Positions 17,749 to 55,400 of a DNA stretch of 64,000 nucleotides are shown here, piece after piece. The position numbers were made by a program, and so were the translations under genes. The DNA comes from Liolophura sinensis. Its lineage: Eukaryota > Mollusca > Polyplacophora > Chitonida > Chitonidae. Under the pieces are notes generated by a model. The model made no database searches. It was not told where the DNA came from and worked only from the letters and a program-made list of their open reading frames with translations. Each line of letters begins with the position of its first letter. Position 1 is the stretch's first letter. Location of the stretch: positions 47,652,521 to 47,716,520 of the forward strand of contig NC_088302.1 in the NCBI RefSeq assembly GCF_032854445.1, given 5' to 3'.

Positions 17749-20700
17749 CTGTCAAACAAAGTACACATGTAAACCATGAACTGCAAATGTCCAAAATAAT
17801 ATATGCAAAACCTGAAATGCAAACATTTATTTATTAATTTGATTGTCATTTGTTCATTCCTCTACTTAGTAATGTACAAATTCCCTTCCAAGGCACAATG
17901 ACTGGCATCAGTGTCAACCATAGAACGGCAAATTACAATATGACAGATGTCAGTTTCAATCATGGCACAATGACTGGCATCAGTGTCAACCATAGAACAG
18001 CAAATTACAATATGACAGATGTCAGTGTCAACCATGGCATAAGGCACAATGACTGGCATCAGTGCCAACCAAACAACAGCAAATTACAATAGGACAGATA
18101 TCAGTGTCAACCATGGCATAAGGCACAATGACTGGCATCAGTGCCAACCAAACAACGGCAAATTACAATAGGACAGATATCAGTGTCAACCATGGCATAA
18201 GGCACAATGACTGGCATCAGTGCCAACCAAACAACGGCAAATTACAATAGGACAGATATCAGTGTCAACCATGGCATAAGGCACAATGACTGGCATCAGT
18301 GTCAACCATGTCAAAAAGCACAACGACTGGCATCAGTGTCAATCATGGCAAAAGGCACAATGACTGGCATCAGTGTCAATTATGGCAAAAAGCACAATGA
18401 CTGGCATCAGTGTCAACCATGTCAAAAAGCACAATGACTGGTATCAGTGTCAATCATGGCATAAGACACAATGACTGGCATCAGTGTCAACCATGTCAAA
18501 AAGCACAATGACTGGCATCAGTGTCAATGGTTTCACGGCCTATCACAATTTGACTGGCATCAGTGTCAATCATGGCATAAGACACAATGACTGGCATCAG
18601 TGTCAACCATGTCAAAAAGCACAATGACTGGCATCAGTGTCAATGGTTTCACGGCCTATCACAATTTGACTGGCATCAGTGTCAACCATGGCATTAGACA
18701 CAATGACTGGCATCAGTGTCAACCATACCAAAAGGCACAATGACTGGCATCAGTGTCAACCATGTCAAAAGGCACAATGACTGGCATCAGTGTAAACCAT
18801 GGCAAAAGGCACGATGACTGGCATCAGTGTCAACCATAGAACGGCAAATCACAATATGACAAATATCAGTTTCAATCATGGCACAGCATAGGCACAATGA
18901 CTGGCATCAGTGTCAATCATAGAACAGCAAATTACAATATGACAGATGTCAGTTTCAATCATGGCACAGCATGTGGCACAATGACTGGCATCAGTGTCAA
19001 TCATAGAACAGCAAATTACAATATGACAGATATCAGTTTCAATCATGGCATAAGGCACAATGACTGGCATCAGTGTCAACCATGGCATAAGGCACAATGA
19101 CTGGCATCAGTGTCAACCATGTCAAAAAGCACAACGACTGGCATCAGTGTCAACCATGGCAAAAGGCACAATGACTGGCATCAGTGTCAATTATGGCAAA
19201 AAGCACAATGACTGGCATCAGTGTCAATCATGGCATGAGACACAATGACTGGCAGCAGTGTCAACCATGTCAAAAAGCACAATGACTGGCATCAGTGTCA
19301 ATGGTTTCACGGCCTATCACAATCTGACTGGCATCAGTGTCAATCATGGCATAAGACACAATGACTGGCATCAGTGTCAACCATGTCAAAAAGCACAATG
19401 ACTGGCATCAGTGTCAATGGTTTCACGGCCTATCACAATTTGACTGGCATCAGTGTCAACCATGGCATAAGACACAAGGACTGGCATCAGTGTCAACCAT
19501 GGCAAAAGGCACAATGACTGGCATCAGTGTCATTCATGTCAAAAGGCACAATGACTGGCATCAGTGTCAATCATGGCATAAGACACAATGACTGGCATCA
19601 GTGTCAACCATGGCATAAGGCACAATGACTGGCATCAGTGTCAACCATGGCAAAAGGCACAATGACTGGCATCAGTGTCAACCATGGCATAAGGCACAAT
19701 GACTGGCATCAGTGTCAACCATGGGAAAAGGCACAATGACTGGCATCAGTGTCATTCATGTCAAAAGGCACAATGACTGGCATCAGTGTCAATCATGGCA
19801 TAAGACACAATGACTGGCATCAGTGTCAACCATGGCATAAGGCACAATGACTGGCATCAGTGTCAACCATGTCAAAAAGCACAATGACTGGCATCAGTGT
19901 CAATGGTTTCACGGCCTATCACAATTTGACTGGCATCAGTGTCAACCATGGCATAAGACACAATGACTGGCATCAGTGTCAACCATGGCAAAAGGCACAA
20001 TGACTGGCATCAGTGTCATTCATGTCAAAAGGCACAATGACTGGCATCAATGTCAATCATGGCATAAGACACCATGACTGGCATCAGTGTCAACCATGGC
20101 ATAAGACACAATGACTGGCATCAGTGTCAACCATGGCATAAGACACCATGACTGGCATAAGTGTCAATCATGGCATAAGACACAATGACTGGCATCAGTG
20201 TCAACCATGGCATAAGACACAATGACTGGCATCAGTGTCAACCATGGCATAAAACACAATGACTGGCATCAGTGTCAACCATGTCAAAAAGCACAATGAC
20301 TGGCATCAGTGTCAACCATGGCAAAAGGCACAATGACTGGCATCAGTGTCAACCATGTCAAAAAGCACAATGACTGGCATCAGTGTCAACCATGGCATAA
20401 GACACAATGACTGGCATCAGTGTCAACCATGGCATAAGACACAATGACTGGCATCAGTGTCAACCATGGCATGAGACACAATGACTGGCAGCAGTGTCAA
20501 CCATGGCATAAGACACAATGACTGGCATCAGTGTCAACCATGGCATAAGACACAATGACTGGCATCAGTGTCAACCATGGCATAAGACACAATGACTGGC
20601 ATCAGTGTCAACCATGTCAAAAAGCACAATGACTGACATCAGTGTCAACCATGGCAAAAGGCACAATGACTGGCATCAGTGTCACCCATGGCATAAGGCA

Positions 20701-23700: not shown

Positions 23701-26700
23701 CAAAGCTTGGAAGAAACCAGTTGAATGTTACCAGGCACCTGAAAGATATCATGATGTAATTCCACAGACACTCCAGCAGAAGGAGGATTTGAGCGTATGC
23801 CCCCTCAAATATATGAACAGTGTTCTAAAATGATGCAGGACTCACCTTGTTTTCATGGTCTGTGATACATCTTTGTCACATGGGACTTTTTTTATCAGAG
23901 TTATCTCCTCCTGGTCTCCATTACTAGTATTTTCATTATTCTCACAATTCACAGATAACATCTGGTCTCCATTACTTGTGCCATTGCCCTCAAAATCCAC
24001 TGAATACACTCGATCTCTCTTCCCCATCCCCAAAATGAGGTCTTCTTTTTCATCAACATAATCCAAGGGCTCTAAAGAAACATTAAACACCGTGTTTTAA
24101 TATAAGTCATTTTATTTCATGCACAACAGGTTAGAGCATAAATGCTTTAGGGGACACTTGTAAATATACAGGTTGAAAATAATACAAACAATATGTTAAA
24201 AAGAGGAACAAAAGTCAAAAAACATAAATATACAGTACTACGGGAGTTGCTTGATGAACAAGCCATGTCTTCATTTAAAGTGATCACAAAGTCTTCCACT
24301 ATATATACATAGAAAAAATAATATATGACACAGTTATCACAGAAAAGTACGTAAAAAAAAAGTTTAGAAAGATGAGAAGATGAAGTTCATCACTGGAGAT
24401 ATGGCACTGCCAGACAATTCACTCCGAGTAGCCATGCTGAAAGTGTCATGTGATAATTGGCTGTCACGTCAAGAAACCTATTAGCTCTCGATTGTCAGTG
24501 TGGTTTCTTATAGTGTATAGACAGATACTGATGCAATAAATTGGATTTTGCAGTTAGTTTAAGCATTAAACTGATCCACTTTATGAGCTTGGAGCTGAGA
24601 ATGGCTGACCATGTCACAACGCTTACATGTTGGGCAGAATACTGCAGTAACTTGTCAGGGTGAGCTGGCAAGAAAACCGCCTCGGAAGATTCAATGCTTG
24701 AAGAAAAATATTGTGACTTTGCATTATTTTCCCTTAGCAAAGTCAGATTTGTTATGAAAATATCTTCCCAAAATCAGAATGAAAGGGTCAGTTATCAATC
24801 AAAATGTCCTGCTATGTTCGGTAAATTCCCTGAATTCGGTACAGTCAACTTGGACAAATGCCTACACCCATGCAGGACGAAAACGAGCAGGGCTGCTAAA
24901 ACACGTGGCTTGTGTCCTTAAACATCGACCTGACCGTGTGCCCAACTGAAAGAAACATTAGACCTTCGAAACGGAACACAGCTGATATTCTCTGGTTGGC
25001 TATCAGGTGTTCTTGTTTGTATTATATCATTGACACATTATTTACTACTGATGGTACAAGAGATCACTTAGGTTTTGTGACGTCACTTTAGATAGCTATA
25101 ACATGACAAAATGGCGTCACCAACTGAGTGGCTAGGCACTGACGATTGTTTGCTATATATTTTCTGGATAAGCAATGTAAAATTTCTAAATATTTTTAAA
25201 ACACTTCAAGAATACTACTTCATTAATTAATTCAGCTTTAGTGGCTGACTTTATGTTCACTTTATTTATTTACTTATATACAAAGGCAAGATTGGGTCAG
25301 CTCTTACCTGGGCAACTGGGGAAGAAGAATCGTCTCTCTTGACAAGGCTGTCAGTGTATGATATGAATATAAGATACAGGGAAAGTGGGGAAACTCTTAC
25401 CTGGAGAATTGGGGAAGAAAAACCCATGGACATCGCTCTTGATAAGCCCGAGTCCTTTCTTGGTGAGGTAGTCATCAACATGTCGCACAGCTTCTATCAG
25501 GCTCCGATCTTTGCTTGCATGAGCTTCCTTCTGTTAAGTTGGAAAGGAGAGATACACACAGGTTTACAGTTTGCTAATGCATATAGGATGCTTGCCGCCT
25601 TCATATCAGTGAAATATTCTTGAGTACGGCGTAAAACACCAATCATATAAATAAATAAATATTCACACTGAACAACTTTATTTGACAGGGTCATATTTTC
25701 CAGTTACAGCTCTGACTGACATGGTTTCAGCTTATTTATTAATGCACTTGTCTATCATGACTTTATATACATGTAGGTTGTGCTGATATATAGACTGATA
25801 ACTGGACTCCCTGATGAGAATGCCACTGCAATCACACCTTCTACATACCTCAAACTTTTCCCTCTGACTGCACGTAAATGGAAAGACCTTACCGCGAGAG
25901 TTTGTGCACCTCACAGAGAACCTGTCAACACAGATCAAACAAATGAGATACATTCAATTACTAATTTAAAACATGACTCATGCCCTATGTGTCATGAAGA
26001 CCACCATCAAAAATCATTTCTTTGGGAGCATCCAAAAAGGGTTCTTACTATCACACTATTAGTGGTTCTTTTCCTTTAAATATTTTTCTCTCCAAATTAA
26101 TTTCTTTAATACCCCTCATTTTCATAAGCTAGAATAAAGATAAAACTTTATAAATAACAATCCTATTTTTCTTTATAGATCCCACTATGCCCAACAAATA
26201 ATTTCTTTTTCAGGATGGCCTAAAATGATTAACAAGAACAGTTAAACTGGTGACCTGGTAAGCATCAAGGACTTGAATGATAGCTGAAAAGTTTGAGGCA
26301 ATTGGGTTAACACTAATGAGGTGGTCAAAATGTTGACCTCTAGGGCCTAAAAATATGGTCTGAATTCTATTTCATATTTTGACTTTCAATAAATACTTCA
26401 CTAATTTTTTTTTTTAACATGATCAGATCGGATAATATTCCCGTAATATGCCAAAGCATGCACTATGTCTCTGGTCAACTTTATTGAGGATTTTAGGGTA
26501 AGTTAGAAGGTGCTGAGATGACCATCAGACTGATAAGCAGCCAAGATGAAAAACCATTCAAATGCACAGCAGTAACTACCAAATCGCAGCAACCTGGTCT
26601 ATACAACTGTCTTATATTCTCATACATCTAACTCAGGATATTTATCTAACTCAATAAATTCACTGAAAGTTCAAACTTACACAGCCCATGCCTTATGACA

Positions 26701-29700: not shown

Positions 29701-32700
29701 CATCAGCAACATGCTATTACAAGATTCTTTACTGTATGTGTAAAAAGGTTACTTGTACATTAAAATGTAAATATTAAAATGTTCCTAATTCAAAAATTCT
29801 TTCCAAGAACTCCTGCACACAAGTAAAATGTTGAGAACTTAGAATCTCAAAACTACAACGTGAACACACAGAAAGTCAGAAGTGACTTACCACAGCAGGC
29901 CAGTATGGCCAGCCTTTCACCTTTGCCCACACAATGTCTCCACCTGACAGTTGGAATTCTAAATAAACAAAAACAGTTTGTTATACGAGTTTAATCTTTT
30001 TCTAACTGTATGAATTGATCATGATTTCTGGGTTTTTCATGCTGGAGGGACCACATGAGAGAGTGAAACAAGGACCTGTGACATACAATTTGTTTATTTG
30101 ATTCGTGTCTTATGCTGTACTCAAAAATATATCGCTTCCACAACCATCCACAAGTTGCTGCCATACCTTCCCACATATGGCCAGAGGACAAGTCATCATA
30201 CGCTCGACTTGAACTCACCGCAAACGCATTGAAGAGAGGCTCCTGGGTGATTGTGCTGTGGTGGCACACTAACCACCCTGGGACACACAAGGACAGAATG
30301 GTAACTTCCATTGTGTGTCTTTACAATAATGCATACGGATGTAGTGTGAGATGGGGCCTGATACAGACTGTTCGATAAGGCCTGAAATAGCCTGTCATGG
30401 GACATGATATACATGTACGCTGATGAGGTCTGATACAGTCTACGATGGAACTAGGCATCTTTGATTTAGCCATCATTCATGATGTGACTGGCAGCTAGGA
30501 CTCCATATGCTATGAGTTTGTGATGGAACCTACCTAACATACATGTACATGTAGGGTATGATTGGACTAGGACCTGGCTGATACAGTCTACCATGTGACT
30601 GGGTCCACATTCATTTATTATGACCTGGCTGATACAGTCTAAGATGTGACCGGGCCCATAGTCATTTACTAGGACCTGGCTGATACAGTCTGCGATGTGA
30701 CTGGGCCCATAGTCATTTACAAGTATGTGACTGGGCCCATACTCATTTACTAAGGCCTGGCTGATACAGTCTACGATGTGACTGGGCTCATATTCATTTA
30801 CAAGGACCTGGCTGATACAGTCTACCACGTGACTGAACACATATTCATTTACTAGGACTTGGCTGATACAGTCTACCATGTGACTGGGCACATATTCACT
30901 TGGTAGGACCTGGCTGATGCAGTCTACCATGTGACTGGGCCCATATTCATTTACTAGGACCTGGCTGATGCAGTCTACCATGTGACTGGGCCCATATTCA
31001 TTTACTAGGGCCTGACTGATACAATCTATGATTGGACTGGGCATACATAACTGATATGGCCTATGATGAGACTGGGCACACATGCATTTAATAAAACCTG
31101 GCTGATGCAGATAGGTAAAGATGTCATTTAGAAAGCGGATGAAGTAACAGTATTATCGTTAATAGGGATTACAGTTTCTGAATATGGCACAGATTCTAGT
31201 GATGAAATCTGGCTGAGACCACTGCGGGTTTCAAACCAGCGACCTCAGAGTCAGGCACCAAATCGCCAGCAATACATGTCAACTGTCTAGACAAAAACAG
31301 AAGGTAGCTGACCGGTAGACTTTACAGCGAACATGCATTACCCCTCTGATGATCACAAACGACGTCACTCCCTTAGGTGAATATATCAGATAGGTATAGA
31401 TGTCATTTAGAAAGCGGATTAAGTAACAGTATTATCATTAATAGGGATTACACTTTCTGAATATAGCACAGATTGTAGTGCTAAGGTTGCTGGTTGGAAA
31501 CCCACAGTGGTCTCAGCCAAATTTCAGCACTAGAATCTGTGCTATATTCAGAAAGTGTAATCCCTATTAATGATAATACTGTTACTTAATATGTGGGAAG
31601 GTCAGCAACCTGCGGATGGTTGTGGGTTTCCCCCGGGCTGTTTCCACCCACCATAATGCTGGCCGCCGTCGTATAAGTGAAATATTCTTAAGTACGGCGT
31701 AAAACACCAATCAAATAAATAAATAAATAAATAACAAGGTACACATTCATTTAATAGGACCTCACTGATGTAGTCTATGAATGGACTCTGCACATATCTG
31801 TAAAACCTTAACCTGGCTGATACAGGCTTGATTGGAGACATACCATGCTTGATTGGAGTGAGTCCCTCAGGTAGCTCATCTTCGCTCTCACTGTCACAGG
31901 TGTCCTGGTAAAGATTTTCGTCAAATCCCATGCTGAAACACACAACACACACAATTATAAATATGGCATATTCAACTCAAGATATGAAAACATTATTCGG
32001 AAAAAAAACTTAGAATTGGTAGCAAAGCTATGCCTATATGAAACACATGAATGCAAAACTTCCGCTTAATGCATAAAGAACTGAAATGAGGAACTTGGTA
32101 ATTTACAGTAAATAATATGCTCACGGAGCATCAGTGATGGAACATTCTCCTTGCGCCACTGTGCTTTATATGCATGTAAAACTTCAGTTCAATACATACA
32201 ATACTTTTTAAGACACCAACCCTAACCTTTTGTTTTAAAATTGACTGTTGTACACAATACACTAAGTCAGGTATTTAGTAACATACAGTACTTAATATGT
32301 ACACACGGAATCAAAAATGGCATATCCCTCTCGTGCTATTCTGCTCTACATGTGTGCAAATCCTTAGCGCTATTCACGCAGTATTTTTTGAGAAATAACC
32401 CAGAACACTTTGTTTACAAACATTGATTCTTATACACAATACACTATGTCAAGAATTCAGTAAATTACGGTACTTAATATGTACACACCGAATCAAAGAT
32501 GGAATATCCCCATCGTGCTACTCTGCTCTACATGTGTGCAAACCCTGAGCTCAATACATGCAGTACTTTTTCAGTAATTTATGGTACTTTTTATGTACCA
32601 CATGGAATCAATGATGGAACATTCCCTGTAATGTGGTATAAGGTTTGAACAACTCTGTACCACACTCACCCTAGAGTTTTGACTACTCTGTACCATATTC

Positions 32701-35700
32701 ACTGTGATGTGGTGTGGCGTTTTGACTACTCTGTACCATATTCACTGAGATTTGGTATGGAGTTTTGATTACTCAGTACCACATTCACTGTGATGTGGTA
32801 TAGAGTTTTAACTACTCTGTACCACATTCACTGTGATGTGGTATAGAGTTTTGACTACCCTGTACCACATTCAATGTGATGTGGTATGGCGTTTTGACTA
32901 CTCTGTACAACATTCACTGTGGAGTTTTAATTACTCCATACCACATTCAATCATGCTCTTTCGGCCCCAAAAATAGTACGCTTTTACATTATGTTCAATT
33001 TTGAGCTTCTCTGCTTTACTCTGCTCCACATTCACAATGCTGTGGTTTGGAATAACGTCAGTGAACTTCAGATCATACTCTTGGCCAATGGCCAACAAAT
33101 ACCAAATATTTTCCCCAAATATTGTCTTTTGCTAAAATCCACCATTTAGCAGAGAATTTAGACAAAGTTTCAAGCCAGTGTGACAGGAAGCTTTCCCCTA
33201 AAATTCATTTACTGATTGAGAACTATCAATGCTATCACAGTCAGGAAATTTCTGACACATGAACTACATTCAAACCCTTTTTTTTTTTTTTTTGTTAAAT
33301 GAACGATTTGTAAACAATTACAATAAACTATTGACAGGGTCAGAGGCAGAATCCACAAAGACATATTTGGCTTGAGTCAAAATTTAAACCATTGTAACCA
33401 TGCTTAGTTTTTAGTTATGAAAGTTGAAATTTTGACATGTTTATCTTAAGATAACATTTCTCATGTGGTCACAATTTCAGTTTACAGGACTCAAAAATAA
33501 GCTCTAAAATCATATTTCAAATTCTGATCAAAGTGAAAACTGGCTATGTGAGATCAGCCCCAGATAATAGAGTATTTGCAAGATTCTTCTGTCTTCTTGT
33601 TGAGGATTTCAGCAAGTATCTTTGGCTTTACATAATGCTTTCCCAATGATCTGCTAATTTAATCTGTCCGAAGATACCCGAATGTCAAAGTTCCTCAACT
33701 TTACCTCACATCTTTGATTATTCTGTGCCACAAATTGTAAAGTGTAAGGTCCGTGATAACAGCTCCACCGCGAGCCAATGTTTATTTGTTTTGTAAACCG
33801 ATGATTAATAAGGTATACATCTATCTATCTATCAACATCTATCTATCTATCTATCAACATCTATCTATCTATCAACATCTATCTATCTATCTTTTTTTTT
33901 TTTTTTTTTTTTTTTTTGTACGCCACAGCAATCTAGGCTGTGGGAAAACAGAACCAAGTCTGTCCGCGGTATGTAAAACTTACCTACATCCTTACTAACA
34001 GGACCAGCCCATCATTATATGACTAAAACGTCACAACCGGCAGACAGATAGAGCCAGGACAGACACAAGAAACAAATATCCATTAAAATTTACAGTAAAA
34101 CTTCCGCCTTAGAATAGGCGGAACTGCTGAAAACGTGAAGTCATGACACCAGGTCACGAACAATTGCCAGATTAAAATTGGACAACGGGCCTGCCGTTCC
34201 GCAGAACACAAAGAATAGAATTGCGACACCAGGTGGTCTTGAATGTCGCCAACTTTCCCAGCCTGCGATGCCGTTCAAAAACAGTCAGCAAGTGGTACTG
34301 CAGGTCCCTGTGGAAAAGGCTGGGCACCACCTTAAGATGGTCGATCACGTGATTGTGCGCTACCACGTAGCACCGATGCCTCCAAATTGACCAGATACAA
34401 AGAAACACCTGATCTCTGACGACCGGTTTCAATGAAGAAGGCACTTGTCTCAAGTCCCCCCACAACACATCTTCCAGGCTGAACGAGAACCCTCGTCCAA
34501 GGACGCGCCCAATTGTCCGTTCCAACATCTGCCACATGCTGGACGCAACCGGGCAATGCCACACAAGGTGTTCTACGGTCTCGTCTTGAGACGAGCACAA
34601 AGGACAGTCGGCAGATACAGACAGTCCTGCTCGGACTAACTTATGCCCGACCCACCACTGTCTGTGCCACAGCAGCCAAACAGCCTCCTTAGCTCGCTTG
34701 TCTACCCCAGACTTCCAGAGCGATAAAAACAAGTTCCTCCAGGACGATGGCACCCAACCCAACTGTTGCCACTTCTGGACTCCGGCAGGGGTTACGTCGT
34801 TGTCCACCAGAAGGATCGGATACCATCTCCTGGAGGAAAGCTGAGAAAGGTCCTGTTGGTTAACCTGATACCTCGTCCGGCTGGGATTCGTTACAGTATC
34901 CGGCAGACTGAACCATGCCTTCGGTATTGCCCTTCGCACAGCTGCTAGGTGACGCCAATTGACGGACTCCAAGACCAGCCACACTCTGGTGCCTCCATCC
35001 ACAATATCCGACAATCGCCGGAAACTGGGCGTGGCCGTCTTACCAGGCATCAAGGGTCTTCCACCCTCTCCTAAAATTAGGGGATTTCCATACAAAGGCT
35101 GATCCAGAGCTTCCTGCCACGAAACCGGATCAGCCTCAGTCCGTTTCAGCTTAAAGAAGGTTTTCAGATGGTCGAAGTACCACCGAGGAAGAGAACTGAA
35201 ACGCGTTGGAGCTTTAAGCAGCCGGAAAAAGTCAACCACAGCGTGGGGTTCACTTTTCGACGCCACAAGCCTCCGGCCTACCTGAGCCCACCGAGACGAA
35301 CTCAACATAAGCCGCTCCAAAAAGGCCAGCTTTAAGGACTGAACCTTCTTGGGGATATCTACGAGGCCTAGACCTCCACTTGCCTTGGGGAGGGTACAAA
35401 CTTTGGAAGAGACCAGAGGCTTTTTGCTCTTCCACAAAAAATCCCGACACATCCCAACTAATGTGTTCTCCTTATCCGCCGGCAAGTCAAAAACTGAGGC
35501 AACATACCACAATTTCGACATTGCCAGCAAGTTTAACACAAAGACTCGCCCAACAATGCTTAGGCCTCTCTTGCTCCATCCCTTGAGGGTGCTGCCGACC
35601 TTCTGGATGCGGTCATTCCAGTTAACAGAAGCCGCGTTTTTTGCACCTTGTTTTACCCCCAAGAGTTTGACGTGATCCTGTGACCATTCAATACCCAAAG

Positions 35701-38700
35701 GAGTATCAGCACGACCCTTCCAAGCACCCAAGAATAACCCTTTTGACTTGGATCTGTTGACTTTGCAGCCAGACGCTTTCTGGTACTTGTTCAAGACCGT
35801 CTCAGCAATGTGGAAGTCTTCATCATCTCCAACGAAGAGAGATGCGTCGTCGGCATACTGGGAGATTTTGATCGGTTCTTCGACATCAGGGACTCTCACT
35901 CCCTTCATGTCAGAAGACCTCACAACCACCCCAAGAACCTCTGCGGCCAGAACGTAAAGCAGGGGAGACAGAGGACAGCCCTGGCGAACTCCACGCTCGA
36001 GGAGAACAGGGTCACCAATAAAACCATTCACCATTACACGACTTACAGGAGACTTGTAAAGAAGCCGGATCCATTTACAAAAAACAGGCCCGAACCCCAT
36101 CCGCTCCAACACTTTGTGCATAAAAGCCCATTCCAAACGATCAAAAGCCTTCTCGTTATCAAGGCTTATGATTGCCGCCTCGATATCCTCGTCTTCGACC
36201 AGCTCTATAAGGTCCCGAACAAGGAAGCTATTGGTGAGGATTGACCTCCCTGGCACAGAACAGGTCTGATCACTGTGAACAACAAGGCCCATCACGGATC
36301 CAAGTCTGCGGGTTAGCGCCTTCGTGATGATCTTATAATCGGCACACAAGAGTGAAATCGGCCTCCAATTCCGCAGGTCCTCTTTTGGCCCCCGCTTGTG
36401 AACGAGCCTGACAAGAGCCTGCTGCATTGAATCGGTTAACTCACCCTGCTCAAAAGCCTCGTTGGCAACGTCCAGCAGGATAGGGCCTAGGACATCCCAG
36501 AAAGCCAAATACAGTTCGACAGGAAGACCATCGATACCTGGGGACTTGTTCAGCGTCATGGACTTTGCTGCAGAGTGCAGCTCTTCCAAAGTGAACGGCT
36601 GTTCACAGATCGCGGCCTCCTGAGGAGGCAAGACCTGGGAGATCTGGGAGATCAACTCCTCCATGCAATTTCTCTCAACTCCCTCTGAGGTGAAGAGGCT
36701 CTGGTAGAAATCGCATGTGGCTTGCAATAAATCCTCGGTGGACCGGACTGAACGACCATCAGGAGTTGCTACTTCGCGGATAAGCTTTTCAGTAGCACGC
36801 GACTTCTCCAAAGAACAGAAATAGCGAGTGGGGTTCTCGCCTTCCACCTGCCACTTGACTCTGGCACGAACGGCGGCTGCTTTATAAGCCTGTTGCTCAC
36901 CAGACCGCACTTTACGTTTCAGACCTTCCAACAAGTCAACTAGATGGGTCTCCCCATCACTAACTCTTTTAGAGACCTTGTTGTAATCCTTTAGGAGTTT
37001 ACGTTGAGCCCGTTTACGGCGACGTGCCCTAGCCCTACTGTAGGACAGTGCTACCCGCTTAAGCCCAGATTTGCCCTCCTCCCAGAATTCAGCAGCAGAC
37101 CTAAAAAAATCCCTCTCTGACATCCAAGCGGCAAAATAATCTCGCATGTTCTTGTGAAACTCTTCGTCATTCAACAGGCTGACGTTGAGCTTCCAGAACC
37201 CCGGACCTTTCTCTACCCAGTCCCCTGAATCAAATTTGGCTGTGACCATAGTATGATCAGACATGGCAGTGGGTTCATGACCTGCATGAACCAGATGTCC
37301 AAGGAGATCCTTGCTACAATACACTCTATCCAGACGCGAAGAGTGCGCACCAGTTGGCGAGGTCCAAGTGTATTCATGGGCATCAGGATGAAGGAACCTG
37401 AAAGTATCCGACAGAGAATATGTTTTTATCAAAGTTGCCAAAGGAGCAGTAGACGAATCAGAAGCTACCGCGGCCATGCTTCGCCTATCTATTAGGGGAT
37501 CTAAGACGCAATTGAAATCGCCTGCCAGGAACAGTTTCTAGACCTTGGAAAAACCGACGACGGTCAGGAACATATGTTGGTGCATGTACGGCGACAAACG
37601 TAAAATCAAAGCCGGAATACTCCGCCTCAACCTTGACCCAACGACCACCGGGATCAGTGACAGATGACACTATGGTCCCCGAGGCGAGGAAAGAAGCAAG
37701 AAACACAATAGCCGTGCCCGCTCTATGATTCGAGCCGGAAGAGGAAAAGACTTTCCCTTTCACAGCTGTTTCAAACCGGGTTACGTCATTGACGTCAGTA
37801 AAATGCGTCTCTTGTAGAAAAGCAACATCTGCTTTTAATGACCTGAAGGTATGGCCAAGGGAAAATTGCTTCCAGTCCGAAAGCAAACCCTGACAATTTA
37901 GTGTGACAACATTCAGAGCCATTATGGATCTATTTAAGTTTTGTTTTTCTCGACTTCTTGTACAGGGCAGCCTTGCGTGCAGCAAAGTCCTCCTGGGACA
38001 GGTAAATGACTTTCCTCTGTTTCCTGACTTTCTCAATTTTTGAGTCGCGGCGCATGGTCCGATAATGGACTCCTAAAGAAGTGGAGACAGGGACTAAAAC
38101 CTCGCCTTGATCGTTTGCGTATGCCGGCATTGACTCGTCTAGGTCTTCTCCCGGAACGGAATCCTCCATTTCCGACGTCGTGTCGTCCATGGGGATAACC
38201 GATCCAGAGGCTTCAATGCCGCTAACTTGGTCTTTTGAGGTGTCTACAAAAATGGCCTCTGAAGCGGTGCTCCATAAGGACTCATTTATATCTTGTTTTG
38301 CAACTGGCTGGGAAAAGGTAAATGACTGACTCCACAAGTCTTGTGAAGAGTCTTGCTCGGGAGACTGACCGGTCGAGCTGTACGGAACCAACGGTTCAGT
38401 GAAACTCAACGATACTTCCTCCTGTTGGACCTGGCTAGAAACTGATGAAATACCATCATCTGCATTTTTGTCCACATCATTTTCCTCCTCTTTACCTCCT
38501 TCATTGCTACCTCCCTCCAGCCCATCCTTACCATTATCCATAGCATCTTTATCATTCCCGTCCTCTGCCTCATTCACCTCATTTTTATCATCATTACCCA
38601 CTACATCATTGCTACTCTCCTGTCCACCATTCGTATCCCCATTCACCATTTCACAATCATCCTCAGCCTCATTACTATCATCCGTGTCATCATCACTGTC

Positions 38701-39451
38701 ATCCTTTCCGTCATTATCTCCCTGCTCATTGTCATGATCATCATTATTCATATCCTCGTCGTCCTTATTACCATTATGATCCATCGCAACTGCGATGTCA
38801 TCTTCATCCCCACTACTTGTCAGATTATCGCTACTCTCAGTGTCCAGATCTTGAGGACAATTCTTTTGGAAATGACCTTCTTGCTTGCAAATCAAACATT
38901 TGTTTTTCAGTGGGCAGTCATTTTTTAGGTGGTCTGTCGCCTGGCACAGGTGACAAGCTCGCACCTGCCCTCTGTACCAGACTGGTAACCGAAAAGATGC
39001 TCCCACCCATATGGCTTCAGGAATGGTGGACGAAATGTTGCTCATCCATACTCTCCTAACCCCATTTTGCAAGGTTCTGTCGAACAGGTAGCATTCTCGT
39101 TCAACAGAGTGCACCGTTCCAAACTGTTTGAGAACAGCCCCTATCCGTTCATCCGGAATCTCATAAGGGCTCTTCACCTTCACCAAAGTTCTGGATTGCT
39201 CAACTTCATAAACCGGACAGTTTACTCCATTAAGTACCAGATCTTCATTAAGTAATTTTTGCTTGACCTCCTCATTGGCAACAGTGACATTCCACAGATC
39301 GCCAGTAACGTGGACCAAACCCCTCAACACTTTGGGTCCGCTGCCGATGCGTTCCTGCAACCCATGATAAACTTCAATGGCTTTTACATTGCCTTTAATT
39401 CGCAATTTAAGGCTAAGAGGCCTTTTAATGCGGAAAGCCATTCTGTTGGTT

Positions 39452-39504
<53 letters not shown>

Positions 39505-42069
39505 CTGCCCAAAGGCGCTACCCGGCTGACACGTCCAACTGTGTGGACGGCCAGTCAGGTACTGCACTGTGTGCTCAACCCCTTCACTGATCAATGAACA
39601 GTGGCCAATAAACTTCGTGCAAGAGTGCACCAATTTGCTGCCTGTTATTCACAAAAGCCTTTGTGTGTGTGCCCTGCTAGCCCGGGATGAATGGCGCTCG
39701 ACCGGCCAAGCTGACCTTGTTCACTGTCCTATGCTGTAACCTGTATAGGCCTCCAACACAGGCCACGACAACTGGTGCCGGAGCCAAGCCGCGTGGGATG
39801 GCCCACCGGCCACGCTGGCCAAACACCAAAACGTCAAAAAACTAGTCAAAAATATAGAATTTCTGACTACAAAGTATATCAATGGATAGCTCGTGACAAG
39901 AGAAATCTGTGAGTATCACAAACACACAAGAAATCACTGGAAATCCAGAGAAATGAAGTCTGACAGATGGAGCGATCTGACAACACGTCCGACCTCCAAA
40001 GTTCTATCTATCTATCTATCAACATCTATCTATCTATCTTTTTTTTTTTTTTTTTTTTTTTTTTTGTACGCCACAGCAATCTAGGCTGTGGGAAAACAGA
40101 ACCAAGTCTGTCCGCGGTATGTAAAACATACCTACATCCTTACTGACAGGACCAGCCCATCATTATATGACTAAAACGTCACAACCGGCAGACAGATAGA
40201 GCCAGGACAGACACAAGAAACAAATATCCATTAAAATTTACAGTAAAACTTCCGCCTCAGAATAGGCGGAACTGCTGAAAACGTGAAGTCATGACACCAG
40301 GTCACGAACAATTGCCAGATTAAAATTGGACAACGGGCCTGCCGTTCCGCAGAACACAAAGAATAGAATTGCGACACCAGGTGGTCTTGAATGTCGTCAA
40401 CTTTCCCAGCCTGCGATGCCGTTCAAAATCAGTCAGCAAGTGGTACTGCAGGTCCCTGTGGAAAAGGCTGGGCACCACCTTAAGATGGTCGATCACGTGA
40501 TTGTGTGCTACCACGTAGCACCGATGCCTCCAAATTGACCAGATACAAAGAAACACCTGATCTCTGACGACCGGTTTCAATGAAGAAGGCACTTGTCTCA
40601 AGTCGCCCCACAACACATCTTCCAGGCTGAACGAGAACCCTCGTCCAAGGACGCGCCCAATCGTCCGTTCCAACATCTGCCACATGCTGGACGCAACCGG
40701 GCAATGCCACACAAGGTGTTCTACGGTCTCGTCTTGAGACGAGCACAAAGGACAGTCGGCAGATACAGACAGTCCTGCTCGGACTAACTTATGCCCGACC
40801 CACCACTGTCTGTGCCACAGCAGCCAAACAGCCTCCTTAGCTCGGTTGTCTACCCCAGACTTCCAGAGCGATAAAAACAAGTTCCTCCAGGACGATGACT
40901 CATTTATATCTTGTTTTGCAATTGGCTGTGAAAAGGTAAATGATTGACTCCACAAGTCTTGTGAAGAGTCCTGCTCGGGAGACTGACCGGTCGAGCTGTA
41001 CGGAACCAACGGTTCAGTGAAACTCAACGATACTTCCTCCTGTTTGACCTGGCTAGATACTGATGAAGTACCATTATCTACATTGTTGTCCACATCATTT
41101 TCCTCCTCTTTACCCTCTTCATTCCTACCACCCTCCTGCCCGTCCTTACCATTATCCATAGCATCTTTATCATTCCCGTCCTCTGCCTCATTCACCTCAT
41201 TTTTATCATCATTACCCACTACATCATTGCTACTCTCCTGTCCACCATCCGTATCCCCATTCACCATTTCACAATCATCCTCAGCCTCATTACTATCATC
41301 CGTGTCATCATCACTGTCATCCTTTCCGTCATTATCTCCCTGCTCATTGTCATGATCATCATTATTCATATCCTCGTCGTCCTTATTACCATTATGATCC
41401 ATCGCAACTGCGATGTCATCTTCATCTCCACTACTTGTCCCATTGTCGCTACTCTCAGTGTCCAGATCTTGAGGACAATTCTTTTGGAAATGACCTTCTT
41501 GCTTGCAAATCAAACATTTGTTTTTCAGTGGGCAGTCATTTTTTAGGTGGTCTGTCGCCTGGCACAGGTGACAAGCTCGCACCTGCCCTCTGTACCAGAC
41601 TGGTAACCGAAAAGATGCTCCCACCCATATGGCTTCAGGAATGGTGGACGAAATGTTGCTCATCCATACTCTCCTAACCCCATTTTGCAAGGTTCTGTCG
41701 AATAGGTAGCATTCTCGTTCAACAGAGTGCACCGTTCCAAACTGTTTAAGAACAGCCCCTATCCGTTCATCCGGAATCTCATAGGGGCTCTTCACCTTAA
41801 CCAAAGTTCTGGATTGCTCAACTTCATAAACCGGACAGTTTACTCCATTAAGCACCAGATCTTCATTAAGCAGTTTTTGCTTGACCTCCTCATTGGCAAC
41901 AGTGACATTCCACAGATCCCCAGTAACGTGGACCAAACCCCTCAACACTTTGGGTCCGCTGCCGATGCGTTCCTGCAACCCATGATAAACGTCAATGGCT
42001 TTTACATTGCCTTTAATTCGCAATTTAAGGCTAAGAGGCCTTTTAATGCGGAAAGCCATTCTGTTGGTT

Positions 42070-42106
<37 letters not shown>

Positions 42107-45100
42107 CTGCCCAAAGGCGCTACCCGGCTGACACGTCCAACTGTGTGGACGGCCAGTCAGGTACTGCACTACGTGCTCAACCCCTTCACTGATCAATGAA
42201 CAGTGGCCAATGAACTTCGTGCAAGAGTGCACCAATTTGCTGCCTGTTATTGACACAAGCCTTTGTGTGCCCTGCTAGCCCGGGATGAATGGAGCTCGAC
42301 CGGGCAAGCTGACCTTGTACACTGTCCTGTGCTGTAACCTGTATAGGTCTCCAACACAGGCCACGACAACTGGTGCCGGAGCCAAGCCGCGCGGGCTGGC
42401 CCACCGGCCACGCTGGCCAAACAGCAAAACGTCAAAAAACTAGTCAAAAATATAGAATTTCTGACTACAAAGTATATCAATGGATAGCTCGTGACAAGAG
42501 AAATCTGTGAGTATCACAAACACACAAGAAATCACTGGAAATCCAGAGAAATGAAGTCTGACAGATGGAGCGATCTGACAACACGTCTGACCTCCAAAGC
42601 TCTATCTATCTATCTATCAACATCTATCTATCTATCAACATCTATCTATCTATCTATCAACATCTATCTATCTATCAACATCTATCTATCTATCAACATC
42701 TATCTATCTATCTATCAACATCTATCTATCTATCTATCAACATCTATCTATCTATCAACATCTATCTATCTAGAGCTTTGAATACTGTGTACTACTGTAA
42801 TTGATCTACTAGTGTCATACAACTAAAGCATCTCCCACAGTACCACTACAAAACCTACCTGATAGAATCAGCAACAGGTGACAAACTCTCAAGTTTGACA
42901 GGATCTGGTGTCAGCAGCAAAGATGTTTCTGATGGAAGTCTGAAAACTGAAGACACCTTCTCTCGTTTTGTGCCCTTTTCATTCGTCGTTGCTTTTGCAG
43001 TGGATTTTCTTAGCCCCTTTTCACTACCAGCAGACTTAACTGCCCTTCCATTCTGAAGAGACTGGATTCCCCTGTCTTTTTCAAACAGCACCCTTTTGGA
43101 ATTAAAGCCCACATCTCTGTCTTTAACTGCTTCTTTCAGTTTCTGGAGGGCACCTTGTCTTGAGAGCTGAGAACCTGTGTTACAGGCCACTGATGCTGAT
43201 GTCCTTGATGCACTCAACATATCATGCTCAGCTGAAGATTTGGAACGTTTTTTACCTTTTTTTGAATTTCTCTCCAATTCATTTCGCTCAACTTTCCTTT
43301 TACAGCCTTTGGAGGATGTACAAGCATCCAAGTCAGTACAGGAAATGTCCGCTCTCCACGTTGCCTCGGAGGCTGTGGATAACTCTGCGAGTGAATAATT
43401 ATCACCATCAAGTCTCTCTGCGTGCTTTCCTCTTGTTGGAGAGCAAACTTTATCGTGTGTCACTTTGTTGTTCAAGCGAGTTGTCACATATCCACAGAAT
43501 TCACAGGTGTATGATGGACTCGGTGGCAAACTTTCACACTCAGTCTTCTCCACCAAATTTTGGCCGTGCACAAAAGCTTCTGACACATGCCTGTTACATG
43601 TGCCATTGTTCATTGTTTGTCTCTCCTCTCCTTTCTCTGATCCACAACTGACAATTAAAGCCTTGCATGAACCACAGTTACCTCCCCTTGACTGCAGTTC
43701 TGATGCATCAGAGTGGTTGCCATTCAGAGACCCTGGAACTTGGGTTTCCTCTTTGTGTGGCCAATCAGCGGGTTTAGGGGATGTCGGTGGGCTTCCCGCC
43801 TCTGATACGCCCACAATCTCCAGGGCTTCATCAAGCGCTTTGCGGAACGCTTTACTGTTCCTAGACTTCAGACCTAAAAAGAGGTATCTCCATTACACAC
43901 CATCACATGTAGATAATAGCACAGAGCACTGGAAATAATCAGCAACTTTTGCACAACACCATTTCTACTCAGCATCGCTACAGATATTTCAAAACAAAAA
44001 AAAAAAGGAATTTATGACTTTTCATGACCAAGTGTCACTAATAATTCCTAACTATTACCATTGTCCATATGAAACCTGTATTGCACTACCAACCATGTAC
44101 TCTAGCTCAGATTTTTTTTTTTTACCGTGGAGTTTTACAGAGCCAGAGAATCATTTGTGGCAACATGGCTATATAATTTCATGTAAGTTGTAAGACAATA
44201 AACAATTTTGTCAACCAGGACAGAAAAGAAAAATTCCACTTACCTACAGCCTGGTACTGTTGCCTCAGAGGACACAGGAAAGGTTGGATATTCTTCACAT
44301 TGTTAACTGGCTCACTGAAACAAACAAATTCTAACCTGAGTAACCGCCCAAAGGCTTTGACAGAATTTAGGTAAGTAATTTGAATTTTAGTAATACAAAG
44401 TACAAAATGATGCACACAAGGAAATCCTGTGCACATGCCCAGGACAATGTGCTTGTGTAAACTGAGACAGCCTGAAAATGTGCGGGTGAAAGTATTATCA
44501 ATATGGCTAGTTCACTTTCGCCTGTACTTTCCAATGCACTCTGATATGGAACTTGATTTGTTCAACAATATGCAAGTTTTTGTCAGTTTACCAACAGTCT
44601 AGTTATGGGAGCTAACAATTTAGTTTCTGAAAATTCACACTCCTTTCAAAATGTAAGAGACTTTGTGAAGTTCATGGTTTCACTCAATAAATCATAATCC
44701 TACATAATTAGGGCGTTTAAGAAGAACAGTTTTAAACTAACACCAAGAGAGCTCCTTGTGGGTCGTAACTACACATGCTGAAGTTTCCAATTTCATTTAG
44801 TCATGTGAATGTTTCTGGTCAGGGATGACCTTTATTGACACATAATAAACATAGCTTATTGCTATGACATGCTTCTCTAAGACTGAAAATGAGAAAAAAT
44901 ATCAATACTCTCAATATAGGCACTATGAAAAGTAATACCCACACAGATTATTATTTTTTTTTCATAACTGCACACGAGTCCGATGTCGCTTTGATTTATC
45001 TATATGATTGGTGTTTTACGCCATACTCAAAAAATTTCACTTAAACGACAGCGGCCGACAAAAACCACTACCTGCCGGTTGCTGGCAGACCTTTCCACGT

Positions 45101-48100
45101 TTGGTCGGAGAGGAAGCCAGCATGAGCCGGACTTGAACTCATTGGTGAAATGCTCCTGGGTCATTGCACTGCGCCAGCGTACTAACCAACTGAGCCATGG
45201 CAGACCCATACGTCGCTTTGAAGAAATCTACATGTTTCGGCTTTACAATATACAGACTGGTTCAGATATATTTTATTTTGATTCATTTATTTATTTGATT
45301 GGTGTTTTACGCCGTACTCAGGAATATTTCACTTATATGACGGCGGCCAGCATTATGGTGGGTGGAAACCCACGACCATCCGCAGGTTGCTGAAAGACCT
45401 TCCCACGTACGGTCAGAGAGGAAGCCAGCATGAGCCGGACTTGAACTCACAGCGGCCGCATTGGTGAGAGACCCCTGGGTCATTGCGCTGCGTTAGTGCG
45501 CTAACCAACTGAGCCACGGAGGCCCCTATTTTATTTTGAATCCAAGTACTCTTATCTATGCCAAAATGAATGAAAATGTGCGTGTACAACACTTAGTGAC
45601 TTCTTCTGACGTCACTCAATAGCACAGTTGTCACACCTTTGTGGTTTACCACAGAACAGGTGTCCAAATAAAACACTTTGGTGCATGATCCCACCCGGAT
45701 TTACAAAAAGGCTACACCGGTTATTAAACATAAATGGGTGCACTGGCTGGCTAAAAGATGGGTGCATACATGAACGGGTACCCATGCACCAGCCCTTAAT
45801 TTCAAGCCTAACAGGAAATTGTGCACCAAAATAGTAATTAACGGGAAAAAATTGAATAAAAGTCACTTACTCTTATGAGCGTTTTATAAACAGATGACAA
45901 GGTCTTTTATGTCAGAAAGCAACATCAAACTCAACCAAAATAGTTACCATATACATGTATAATATAACACGTCTGGTTGGTTCCGACAGTATGGGATATT
46001 GTGTATCAGACCTTCGTTTTTGTCTTTGCATGACGACGGGCATGTGTGAACTGTGTCTAATCAAAGTTCTCATTCCACAGATTCCTGAGGGATATTACAT
46101 GTACTTTGGGTTTGTCACTGTAGGTTCACTTTGTGGGACTTCAAATCAAGCTTGAAAACCCGCCTGATCCATGTATAGAAAATATTTTCATTGGTCATCT
46201 GTCTGCTTGCCATACCTGCTCCAGCTAGCGTCTGATTTTGACAAAAAAGTTGTGTGCAGGTTTATTTTGTGTAATTCATCAAATTTGAACACCAGCTTCC
46301 TCCATGCATAATCTTATCATACTTAGTGCGGGTTATAAACGGCCTATATATTCTCATTCCGTTGACTGTCTTGACTGAGTGGGTGCTTGGGGTTTAACGT
46401 CGTACTTAACATTTTTCCTGTCATATGACAAGGAAGGACTCCTTAGAGTGTATGTAATGTGCCTACTTGTTGCAGGATGGATTTTCACAGCTCTTTAATC
46501 TGGTGCTGCTTCACTGAGACAACTTGCCAAATGCAAGTTTCCGCACCTCCCAAGCCATTATACTGATACGAGTCAACCAGTCACACTATCCCCTCCATGC
46601 TTAACACCAAGGGAAGAAGTTACAACTTCCTCTTTTTTAAGGTCTTAGGTGTGACCACACCTAGGATTACCCTACAGTAAATCTACCATCCCCGAAAATG
46701 ACGCTCTACCAACTGTGTTATCAGGGCCGGGCCATCTGTCTTGAAGACAAAATGAAGTATAATGTAAAACCAGATGTCAAAACTCATGTCACACCATGCA
46801 GATGTCATTTACTAGATATTATAAATGGAAAATGAAAATGAACTTGAGCAAATACTAAAACTGAAGAATGTATGTATGCATATCTTTCCCGCTGTGTTAT
46901 TTTATCATTGGTATGCAAGTATGTATGTATGCAAGTATGTATATATGCTTTGGGCTTTACGTCATGCACTGTACATAATAATTTTTGAGTCATATGACAA
47001 GGAGTCATCATTAAGTGTGTGTACATATACTGTGTCCTCTTGTGGCAGGGCAATCCCATACTGCCTAATTGCTACTGTCACTAAGTATCTTGCTGATGAT
47101 ACCAGACAGGACACCTCATCTGGTCACATTATTCTGACACCGGGCCAACCAGTCTCATTTCCTTGCTCCAACCACCCAATGCTGACTGCCAAGCGAGACA
47201 GCAACAATTACCATTTTTAAAGTCTTTGGTATCATCCGACTTGGGTTTGATCCCAGGCATCCAGAGGTCGAGGCACACGCCCTTATCATTATACCATCAA
47301 AGCGGTCTATTCTATCATTGATAATCATATTCACGGTGACAAGTTTCTCTTCCAAAAATCTTAACCAAAAGCTTTACATAGCTATAGCTACTCACTATGA
47401 ATATTCATCCAGGTACTTCACACATGTGATGCTTGGCAGTGGTCTCCCCTTGGCCCTGGGCCAAAGTTCTCTGTCCAAAACCTGCAGTGTACAAAAATAT
47501 ACCAACATACATGTACAAAGTATTCAATATTGTTGAACCTTTGAAACTTGAAATGCTTGGCTCTGTCTGATAGCATTGGGATAAGGCTGTGTTTCTGTGA
47601 ATATGCAATTGTGTTTGCGTTACTTCATGAGATTAGTTGACCCATCATTGGTGTTTGCACGGCTCATGTGTTGACAACTACCATTCCATCAACTGTCAAT
47701 CCACCCCGGCAATGCATCCTTGTCTGATGCATTCAACTTGGGATATGTTCCATTTTCTCTGCATTCTGTGAAAACACTCCTGTGTAAATGTAATTCCCAT
47801 TCTCAAAAGTAGTAAATCAGCTGAAATCGCAAATGCCATAGCATGTCCGTGAAAAGACATTATTAATGGGCAACATGTAAAGTCTAAAACAATGGATAAA
47901 AGCTAAAAGCATAAATGTTACACACTACACATTACAGATTATGATAAAGGACCTAAACTTTCTCCCTTAACGTCATTTTCAGACACAAAATAAATTATCC
48001 TAATTTGGTGCTGAAACTTACATTTTTTGGTGGGGGGGGGGGGGGGCATTCTGAAATATATTTTCCAGTAGGATACTGTCCTCCTCTTTATCAGGAGTAA

Positions 48101-52437: not shown

Positions 52438-55400
52438 GTGAGACTGTTTTTTTTTATTTTATTTTTTTCTTTTATACCAGAGTACATAACAAATGAGATG
52501 GTGTAATATGTTGTTAATGTATTTGAACACTATGTATGAGGGAAAATAATGTTCTTGTAGATAGTAGAATCCACTTGCTCATCCATGTGTGGAAATTGTG
52601 CTGTAATATCCTTATTTGATTTATTTATTTATTTGAATGGTGTTTTATGCTGTATTCAAGAATATTTCACTTATACGACAGCGGCCAGCATTATGGTGTG
52701 AGGAAAACAGGCAGAGCCAGGAGGAAACCCACGACCATCTGCAGGTTGCTGGCCTTCCTTATTTGAAATGAGCACATGTAGATGTACATTGTTTTATGTG
52801 ATTTGTAGGGAAATTAACCATGTATACTTAAAATATATAATATAAGAAATAATTCGTTTATATATACCAGTGTACGTAAATCATGCAGAATTGGATATTG
52901 TCATTGATACAGCATTAGTGTGATTTTCTGTATGATATTTAGTACGTCTATAGCCATACATTATTAGTGTAAATATGAAAGTAATTACGCCTAAAATTGT
53001 GTTAAAACTGATTTTCATGTTAGCTCAGAAAGCTGCAGATTACTAAACCACTTTTGAATATCACAAGGACTGTAGTTCTTCATCCTTTCCTCAGATTTGT
53101 AGGGTGTTGTTTCAAGCATATTCTAGGGATGTTCTGTGTTGACTGATAAAATTATACTTTTTATGAAGCCCTGAAACTGGCCAATCCAACGAATGTACTT
53201 TCATCTCCAAAATCAAATAAAAAATGTGCATAAATTGCACTGAAAATTGCTCTTTTATATGCAAAATTGTTGAGAAATTAGGTTAAACATCTTTCAACAA
53301 TAATGAAGTCAGACTTAAGTGAAACTTACTCTGTAGAGAAATGAATGGGATGAATGTGCCTTATAATAACAAATGTGTGTCTAGTACCGAGTGTACGTCT
53401 GAACAATGTCACAATTGACTCTAGTTTGTTTATTAAAAAAATGAATAGTGAAATTTATCCATCTAATAAGTGGAGTTTGATGATGTATCAGTTGTTTTAA
53501 TTTCTGTCATATGAAGAATTGTGCTCTTGTGTTTAGATTATTGTTAACTTTAATGTGAAGTGTTCTCAGCAAAGGAACTTAATTTCTCCACACATTATGT
53601 ATACCTGCAATTGTACATGACCAATGCACCTGAAATAACCCTTTTTTTTTTTTTTTTGATAAGGACACCTGATGAATATAAGAAGTCTGTGTGGGCTGAA
53701 ACAGGGAGAGAGCTGCGAATCATGGCTGACAAATTTGCCAAAACCAAAGAGAGACAGATTGTCAGACAGAAGGCCAATGCTGTAAGACATTCATTTTTAA
53801 GATTCTGCTTTATATTTTGGCTTTATACAGCACAGCACAGTGTGTGTCATTAATGCATCATTTTTGTACATTGGCTTAAACTGTTTGGTAGTAATCTGCA
53901 GTTTATTCAAATGAAAATAAAAGATTTAAACTGGGAATATGTGGATTTTTTTTTTTTTTTTTTTTGGTGTTTGCATGCAGCCTGAAATGTCTCTCAGTAT
54001 GAAGAGTACAAATAATCTGTCATACATCTGTGTAGCTTAATAGTGTGTAATAAATTTATGCTGATAATAGATTAAAAAAAATAAGAATTTTTGAAAGCAG
54101 ACATATGCAACTTTAGGTACATAATAGTAACACGCAAAAGTAGTACCTAGTTACTGCTATTATTGCAACTAGACTACATGTATGTGTATGTATATTGAGT
54201 TTAGTTACACACAGTGAACCAGTTTAGATGATGCCAGTGATAGGCCATTAGAGCTAGACTTCAAAGACAAAGCTTGCTGTACCATAATGAATGTGGCACA
54301 CAACTGGTACTGTCAATAACAACCCTCAAATACATACATACATGTATATTTTTGGGAAAACGTTACCAAGCTTTTTTGGTCATACGCAAGTAACATGAGA
54401 CCAAAAATCAATAGTTTTGTCTGATGCAGTATTTTGGTACACATGTACCGTTACCAGGAGTAAGTTCTTGTAAACTGGAAATACACATCAACATATTCAA
54501 GAAAAGACGTTTAGATATAAAACCGTAAGGAAAATATAAGAAACATACAGAAGGATATTTTTATACCATTTACAGAATGAAGAAATAGGTACTCATGATG
54601 ATGGCATGATAAATCTAAAAGAAGGCTTATTCATAGTTTCAAGCATCTGCGTCATTTGCAGGGATCAGAGGTGATTATTAACATGGAGCTAATTTGGTGA
54701 AATGCAGGTTACTCAAATTTGTGATGATCACTTCTGATTACTTTCCGAGAAGAGTTTGTTACTTATAAACTATATTTTTGTTTTTTAATGGGAAAATCTT
54801 ATTCAAGGCCTATCTTTACCTGGTCTAAATTCGCTTTGTCTCATCTCCAGTACTCTAGTCACATGACCAAAGAGTGTGCTAATGATTGGTTTAGAGCAGC
54901 CGTGAGGTCACTGCAGAACTTTGAATTGAGTCCAAATGAGCACTTATGGTTCTTGCTCTAACACTGCTTGACTCTGTAAATTATACAAAATTGATCGATG
55001 GAACTTTTGAAAAAAGAAGAAACTTTTTTAGTGTAAAGAATGTTTTTTTGTTTTGTTTTTTGTACTTGTTAAGGCTGAAGCCAGAATTTAAATTTAATGA
55101 TTTTCGTCTGTATAGATTGTGATCAGCACCGTTCACAGCTCTTGACAGAACAAAGACTAGGGAGTCATAAACAAGTTCACAAAAAGATAATTAAAGGTAA
55201 TTATCTCGCTATGTAAAATTTGACACATAAATGTAGGCGGTGTTCAGTTATCAATGATATGGTCATCTTATAATGAATTACTTTTGACTCATTGATGATC
55301 GTTGCTATATTTAATGATGCGTAAGATCTTATTCAAATTTATCATACAGCATTAAGGCATCGGTAACGGTAAGTTGAAGATGTGTGTATTCAAGTAAAAC

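Follow-up and report, generated by a model that had tools for sequence, protein, structure and literature searches.

A LINE that very probably targets short GATA tracts and stacks in head-to-tail chains in the genome of Liolophura sinensis

SART1Bm and TRAS1 are long interspersed nuclear elements (LINEs) of the R1 clade, Kibi and Koshi are microsatellite-specific LINEs of the Tx1 clade, and Kojima and Fujiwara reportedly described in 2004 Tx1-clade LINEs that are specific for microsatellites and RNA genes. As given in excerpts of the accounts cited here, tandem copies of R1 in the 28S ribosomal DNA (rDNA) of Drosophila are separated by a 14-bp target-site duplication, and the authors infer that new copies enter this duplication at the 5′ end of the residents (PMC2718515). 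SART1Bm requires a minimum of three TTAGG units, the third of which receives the insertion (PMC7265360); for SART1Bm and TRAS1, which occupy the telomeric repeats of the silkworm, the endonuclease sets the target and the repeat follows the poly(A) with no gap (PMC7265360, PMC2868851). Microsatellites are also named among LINE targets (PMC4640811, PMC3706591), and of 94 3′ junctions of Utopia in N. vitripennis, 74 lie at U2 and 20 at Utopia itself (PMC4640811). The Hebe chains of rotifer subtelomeric DNA consist of mixed element types at the chromosome end, with duplications of 7–12 bp for intact Hebe (PMC2861651). Here we analyse a stretch of 64,000 nucleotides (nt) from the mollusc Liolophura sinensis (RefSeq assembly GCF_032854445.1, contig NC_088302.1, positions 47,652,521 to 47,716,520 of the forward strand; the whole stretch is called the window) that contains two copies of one LINE. 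We consider it very probable that this young L1-group element inserts by target-primed reverse transcription into short GATA tracts and duplicates (GATA)3, on which later copies stack.

The two copies, both on the minus strand, follow one another head to tail in a single (TCTA)n array that is interrupted by CAAC (Table 1). The original prediction, made from the letters of the window, had placed copy 1 at 33892–40002 and copy 2 at 40039–42600, each starting and finishing within the same interrupted TCTA repeat, and both the coordinates and the placement were borne out. A BLAST comparison of the region with the window matched 33859–34749 to 40006–40897 at 98.9% and 38279–40038 to 40897–42636 at 96.3%; copy 2 is without 3,530 bp of copy 1 (the gap between 34750 and 38279). 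The array is built of 18-bp and 22-bp units of the form (ATCT)nATCAAC, and it is not a product of chance, because TCTATCTATCTATC (at most one mismatch) has 20 matches in the window, all within the array stretches, against 0.01 expected from shuffles. Both copies were inserted at the same position of the 22-bp unit, and both have complete 5′ ends. The 26-bp deletion in the endonuclease region of copy 1 was present in none of the 19 other full-length copies spanning it, and the 3,530-bp deletion of copy 2 was absent from all 20 remaining copies read end to end.

The assembly (609 Mb) was searched with the 3′ end of the element as query, and the best 40 of 57 candidates, which were 96–100% identical to the query, were scored. 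With the neighbouring copy C4:79891 (read in L016), 41 copies, the best matches to the window, were read; 31 5′ ends came from the initial reading, and 15 small fetches added eight 5′ ends and one 3′ end. A further copy at C4:3162972 (L088) lies outside the 41. On the 3′ side, 21 of the 41 junctions lead into a next copy, with poly(A) and then a GATA tract in between, and 20 lead into host DNA. These outer 3′ junctions carry GATAGA at most 24 nt from the poly(A) in 18 of 20 cases: GATAGATA follows the poly(A) directly in 12, GATAGA follows it directly in one and stands within 24 nt in five. GATAGA stands just upstream of 18 of the 19 outer 5′ ends (11/11 in the first set, 7/8 in the later one), the lone exception, C156, beginning at position 8. 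Orientation and phase relative to the GATA tract were uniform among the copies read. The microsatellite-specific element that had been proposed from a single locus is thus supported for the best-matching copies of the family across the genome, rather than most copies lying in non-TCTA DNA.

An unspecific LINE that is tolerated in, or drawn to, AT-rich simple repeats, and whose link to GATA is loose, would fit the two outer 3′ flanks without GATAGA and the degenerate tracts at C9 (GATAGATAAATAAAT) and C6:10.9M (GACAGAGATATAT). We give this explanation almost no credence, given the uniform phase and orientation and the frequency with which GATAGATA directly follows the poly(A), even though an exact search of the 609 Mb for the 18-mer (GATA)4.5 gives only 501 matches, overlapping ones included. 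Of the 14 copies without a 3′-end neighbour, five (C1:95.4M, C4:367k, C6:10.9M, C11:13.2M and C9, where the match begins at position 379) had no standard 5′ end at the expected distance, and therefore truncation or damage occurs. The 3′ flanks at L030 and L032 hold AGATAGATAGAGCTTTATTTCAGACTG, which begins like the 5′ end of the element and then diverges; these flanks perhaps belong to a related family with another 5′ untranslated region (UTR) and the same target.

Sequence comparison of the junctions points to (GATA)3 as the likely target, with a 12-bp duplication that would leave one target on each side. Among 20 readable copy–copy junctions, 11 are exactly GATAGATAGATA, that is, (GATA)3. 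When the element start was taken as GAGCTTTGG and the outer ends were compared at 11 loci, the direct repeat was exactly GATAGATAGATA at C2, C6 and C23, with different sequence beyond both sides (partly simple repeat at C2 and C6). The spacer of these 11 inner junctions is thus the direct repeat of the three outer sites, which is the R1-type arrangement of copies separated by their duplicated target. In the window, an 18-nt GATA run in the 22-bp unit and a 12-bp duplication predict tracts of 17 and 15 nt, as observed. The direct repeat at C13:15.5M measured 11 nt, and its 5′ tract ends in GATGGAG, as at the C1 chain; because GATGGAG may reflect either mutation or a variant of the element, this repeat was not counted as support. 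Two other descriptions were set aside. One gave the element a 5′-terminal (TAGA)2 and a duplication of 6 bp; it was dropped because empty host repeats have an array of 14–42 nt and because most junctions are accounted for more simply by a 12-bp duplication alone. A 15-bp duplication in the window pair describes the same repeat with ambiguous ends.

We propose that the endonuclease of the element would choose three GATA units in a short GATA (TAGA/TCTA) tract and nick the TCTA strand at the tract edge, the point to which the poly(A) is seen attached in the inserted copies. The poly(A) RNA would be copied from this nick, and a second cut about 12 bp away would duplicate (GATA)3, which is why (GATA)3 would stand on both sides of every insertion. 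Later, unrelated copies would then enter the flanking (GATA)3 in the same orientation and build head-to-tail chains that reach at least five copies; the window pair would be a chain of this kind, set in a native GATA array with interruptions.

The original prediction had also read the window pair as two independent landings and not as the outcome of local duplication only, and divergence between the copies upholds that reading. The aligned part (2,535 bases of copy 2) contains 54 mismatches. Those in the shared open reading frame (ORF) 1 comprise 17 synonymous and 13 non-synonymous changes, a ratio of non-synonymous to synonymous change (pN/pS) of 0.19, and in 4000 simulations that placed the same changes at random the synonymous count was reached in none. 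The short shared tail of ORF2 was uninformative (3 synonymous versus 4 non-synonymous changes, P 0.29). The window copies diverged under purifying selection, and because decay in place after a local duplication would not give this ORF1 pattern, their differences arose in separate source elements. Their nearest 3′-end relatives also lie elsewhere, copy 1 being 0.12% from a C1 copy and copy 2 0.48% from a C4 copy, against 1.08% between the two. The 5′ parts (38279–40002 against 40898–42600) differ more than the 3′ ends, 45/1,702 (2.6%) versus 9/833 (1.1%), P 0.012, and copy 2 may itself be a chimera of two source RNAs.

When chains were defined as same-strand neighbours within 13 kb, 27 of the 41 copies fell into nine chains, and no opposite-strand neighbours occurred among the 41 copies listed. 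The longest chain has five 3′ ends plus a further 5′ end beyond the last; in one of its members (C1:91020310–91032070; L008, L025, L047) the 5′ and 3′ parts lie about 5.7 kb further apart than in other copies, and this member seems to be interrupted by other inserted DNA. The nearest relative stood in the same chain for 3 of the 27 members (shuffled mean 2.0, P 0.33), and the mean distance within chains was 2.32%, compared with 2.40% after shuffling (P 0.24). On a maximum-likelihood tree of the 833-bp 3′ ends, chain labels changed 19 times (shuffled mean 19.6, minimum 8), and over full length the mean was 1.89% within chains (12 pairs) and 2.21% between them (198 pairs). The chains are mostly not local duplications, and most neighbours are unrelated.

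Among the first 100 matches of (GATA)4.5 listed, 31 arrays were counted by hand on C1 and C2 (125 Mb), which extrapolates to about 150 overall. With 173 equal sites, 8.5 of 41 randomly placed copies would be expected to share a site, and at least 27 did so in 0 of 20,000 draws; with 100 equal sites this was reached in about 1 of 10,000 draws, the site number being extrapolated and the test being weakened if sites differ in appeal. The excess is strengthened because the shorter (GATA)3 tracts must outnumber the 18-mer arrays. We put forward tentatively, as a possibility less likely than its opposite, that the element strongly favours occupied over empty GATA tracts, because it would recognize some part of the resident copy, whether its poly(A) or the 5′ end or promoter chromatin adjoining the (GATA)3. 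The family would in this way create the targets it prefers and, from unrelated source copies, start satellite-like LINE arrays at single sites. Empty sites are supplied by a dispersed host repeat (L011, L027, L041, L044, L054, L055 and L063–L094) that serves as a spread landing site: it carries a native GATA array at the LINE insertion point and is occupied by the LINE at several loci. The best 40 of 64 candidates for this repeat were scored. In 26 of 31 further copies a script read an array of 14–42 nt; of the remaining five, L071–L073 were misread by the script and showed the array by eye, L088 holds a LINE 3′ end and L093 has other left sequence.

Several observations weigh against the stepwise targeting of (GATA)3 proposed here. 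The motif is absent from 2 of the 20 outer 3′ flanks, and 9 of the 20 inner junctions deviate from exact (GATA)3 (8–34 nt or variants). Three loci (C4, C5 and C8:10.9M) have a direct repeat of 8 nt and C11:22105k has one of 4 nt, so the duplication varies or tracts shrank later, and the direct repeat is ambiguous in long arrays (24 nt at C7, 16 nt at C12 and C1:70.6M). Frequent hits on occupied sites are not explained by the target alone. Some neighbours are close relatives: the adjacent copies C4:79891 and C4:86017 are 0.24% apart over 833 bp, the full-length nearest relatives of C4:86017 and C4:92137 are each other (0.91%), and a chain neighbour is one of the three copies tied as nearest to C1:91032107 (1.33%). 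The two copies at C13:7.88M (L018) have the same 5′ truncation and about 55 bp of flank in common; the one counted among the 14 without a 3′-end neighbour has a neighbour via its 5′ end. From these C4, C1 and C13 cases, some local duplication is likely. Tandem copies in general might be local duplications of one insertion, produced by unequal exchange or slippage between GATA tracts, with one copy having lost 3.5 kb, and a TAGAAAG variant common to three C4 junctions points the same way. This explanation is already contradicted for most chains, as chain membership leaves no detectable phylogenetic signal, and the window pair diverged under purifying selection, unlike copies decaying in place; we regard it as very improbable.

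A basal group of the tree holds 9 of the 14 copies without chain neighbours and 5 of the 27 chain members (P 0.006) and is read as older copies, on a split with support 73/81 and a midpoint root. The presumed older member stands at the 3′ end in three of four mixed chains; growth on the 5′ side is only hinted at, because of that weak split and rooting. The same split bears on whether chains were made in one event, with the reverse transcriptase (RT) leaving one RNA at its 5′ end and jumping to the poly(A) of a different RNA, and with GATA carried at the RNA 5′ end. Such jumping would likewise give unrelated neighbours, and one constant sequence at 11 of the 20 inner junctions suits it. The inner junctions of the window and of C7, in contrast, hold variants of the adjacent host array (GTTG, GGTAG), and members of single chains span the presumed older and younger groups, weakly separated as these are, which makes a single event very unlikely.

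In the C4:79930–86017 stretch (L011/L016), 1-nt indels number in the dozens across the two ORFs of one chain member, a pattern that resembles a local assembly error more than decay. The many 1-nt indels of C4:86017, which resemble a poor consensus, also lend something to the idea that the pair, or the chains, are an assembly artefact joining two haplotypes with one insertion each. Nine chains, on contigs that are all at least 19 Mb long, speak against it; they have as many as five members, and their poly(A) tails differ in length. We hold an artefact to be extremely improbable.

Copy 1 is ordered as 5′ UTR, T50, ORF1 (CCHC), ORF2 (apurinic/apyrimidinic (AP)-type endonuclease, RT, zf-RVT) and poly(A). 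Both ORF1 (503 codons) and ORF2 (1,256–1,258 codons) are open in 12 of the 21 copies read end to end, and the family is young and probably still active. On its sequence the element is classed as an L1-group non-long-terminal-repeat retrotransposon, with an AP-type endonuclease N-terminal in ORF2 and an RT that is nearest to L1 ORF2p among solved RTs. In a phmmer search of PDB sequences only, the RT matched L1 ORF2p at 1.8e-61 and the best R2-type protein at 5.3e-12; no R1 RT was named among these matches. The piece at 37554–37922 matched L1 endonuclease (E 1.3e-5), and all nine matches listed were L1 or L1 variants, among which we take LR1 and LTX to belong; the Exo_endo_phos profile reached E 1.2e-4, below the profile cut-off. 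Tx1-clade LINEs have an ORF1 with CCHC zinc knuckles that is not L1-type. The ORF1 found here matches zf-CCHC (2.9e-7), a trait not unique to Tx1, and the families listed for it do not include PF02994, presumably the L1-type ORF1 family. Target specificity, a Tx1-type trait, is seen at 18 of the 20 outer 3′ junctions, and a Tx1 label is plausible on these sequence features. Among clades with an AP-like endonuclease, an excerpted account places site-specific LINEs in Tx1 and R1 only (PMC13295347). A 28S or telomeric target was not seen for the element. RNA genes were rejected as a target, as no Rfam or tRNA match lies within the window. The predicted fold of the ORF1 N terminus (predicted local distance difference test score 38) was not used, and no relatives of the ORF2 piece 34172–37477 were found in the viral contigs, genome contigs, plasmids and phages searched.

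The T tract on the sense strand spans 50 nt in copy 1 (39453–39502) and 34 nt in copy 2 (42071–42104). Both tracts lie about a dozen bases upstream of the ORF1 start and could pair with the 3′ poly(A) in the RNA.

Table 1. Coordinates of the two LINE copies and of the surrounding array in the window
Feature	Position	Strand
Host TCTA/GATA array, left part (3′ flank of copy 1)	33819–33892	
Copy 1 poly(A) tail, 26 nt	33892–33917	−
LINE copy 1, full length save for a 26-bp deletion in the endonuclease region	33918–40002	−
Copy 1 ORF2, main open part, 1101 aa; RVT_1 (6.4e-29) and zf-RVT	34172–37477	−
Copy 1 ORF2, N-terminal piece, AP-type endonuclease; in another frame than the rest, with the 26-bp deletion between	37554–37922	−
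Copy 1 ORF1, 503 aa; CCHC zinc knuckles and acidic stretch	37930–39441	−
T50 tract just ahead of ORF1 (T34 in copy 2)	39453–39502	−
Copy 1 5′ UTR, begins (GA)ACTTTGGAGG	39503–40002	−
Inter-copy GATA tract, retains the GTTG/CAAC marker of the host array	40003–40038	
Copy 2 poly(A) tail, 27 nt	40039–40065	−
LINE copy 2, both ends complete, 3,530-bp internal deletion	40066–42600	−
Copy 2 in-frame fusion of ORF1 (387 aa) and ORF2 tail (zf-RVT), 579 aa; junction near 40897	40320–42059	−
Host TCTA/GATA array, right part (5′ flank of copy 2)	42601–42772	

Elsewhere in the window, an interspersed SINE (short interspersed nuclear element)-like repeat occurs at 22649–22724, 25588–25661, 31656–31729, 45064–45526, 52606–52729 and 58536–58605, some copies ending in (AATA)n; we take it to resemble a tRNA-SINE common in molluscs. 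Many minisatellites are also present (6074–6806, 16395–16674, 17964–21174, 30566–31042 and 32674–32921), including 85 copies of a 37-bp unit.

In the open literature we found no LINE specific for GATA/TCTA, and subscription papers and Repbase may differ; as far as found, the GATA target and the chains at scattered sites are new, and the component parts are known. A duplication equal to the whole target would turn one target into two, and for this reason the element would never exhaust its sites. By such simple means a repeat of 12 bp could give rise to a LINE array tens of kilobases long in DNA that is neither rDNA nor telomeric repeat. Because this genome contains many copies with open ORFs alongside host repeats that are still empty, how an L1-group endonuclease chooses its target can be tested directly. 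What was read at a single locus here predicted a rule for the best-matching copies of the family genome-wide.

Set beside the systems described above, in so far as the excerpted accounts go, the Liolophura element combines features of several. It shares with the Hebe chains the head-to-tail order of retroelements, unlike them in its GATA target, of which the excerpted Hebe account says nothing (PMC2861651). Like Utopia, it forms tandem copies at its target, and unlike it, does not have the restriction-like endonuclease and U2 small nuclear RNA target of that element. The resemblance to SART1Bm and TRAS1 lies in a LINE devoted to a short tandem repeat that its poly(A) abuts, the difference in the telomeric nature of their repeat. 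With the Tx1-clade LINEs specific for microsatellites or RNA genes it has in common an AP-type endonuclease, target specificity and, among the targets, microsatellites. As in R1, finally, a target-specific LINE forms tandem copies spaced by the duplicated target; unlike R1, which resides in rDNA with its hundreds of units, the element described here occupies a GATA microsatellite at scattered sites and has an RT whose best match is L1.

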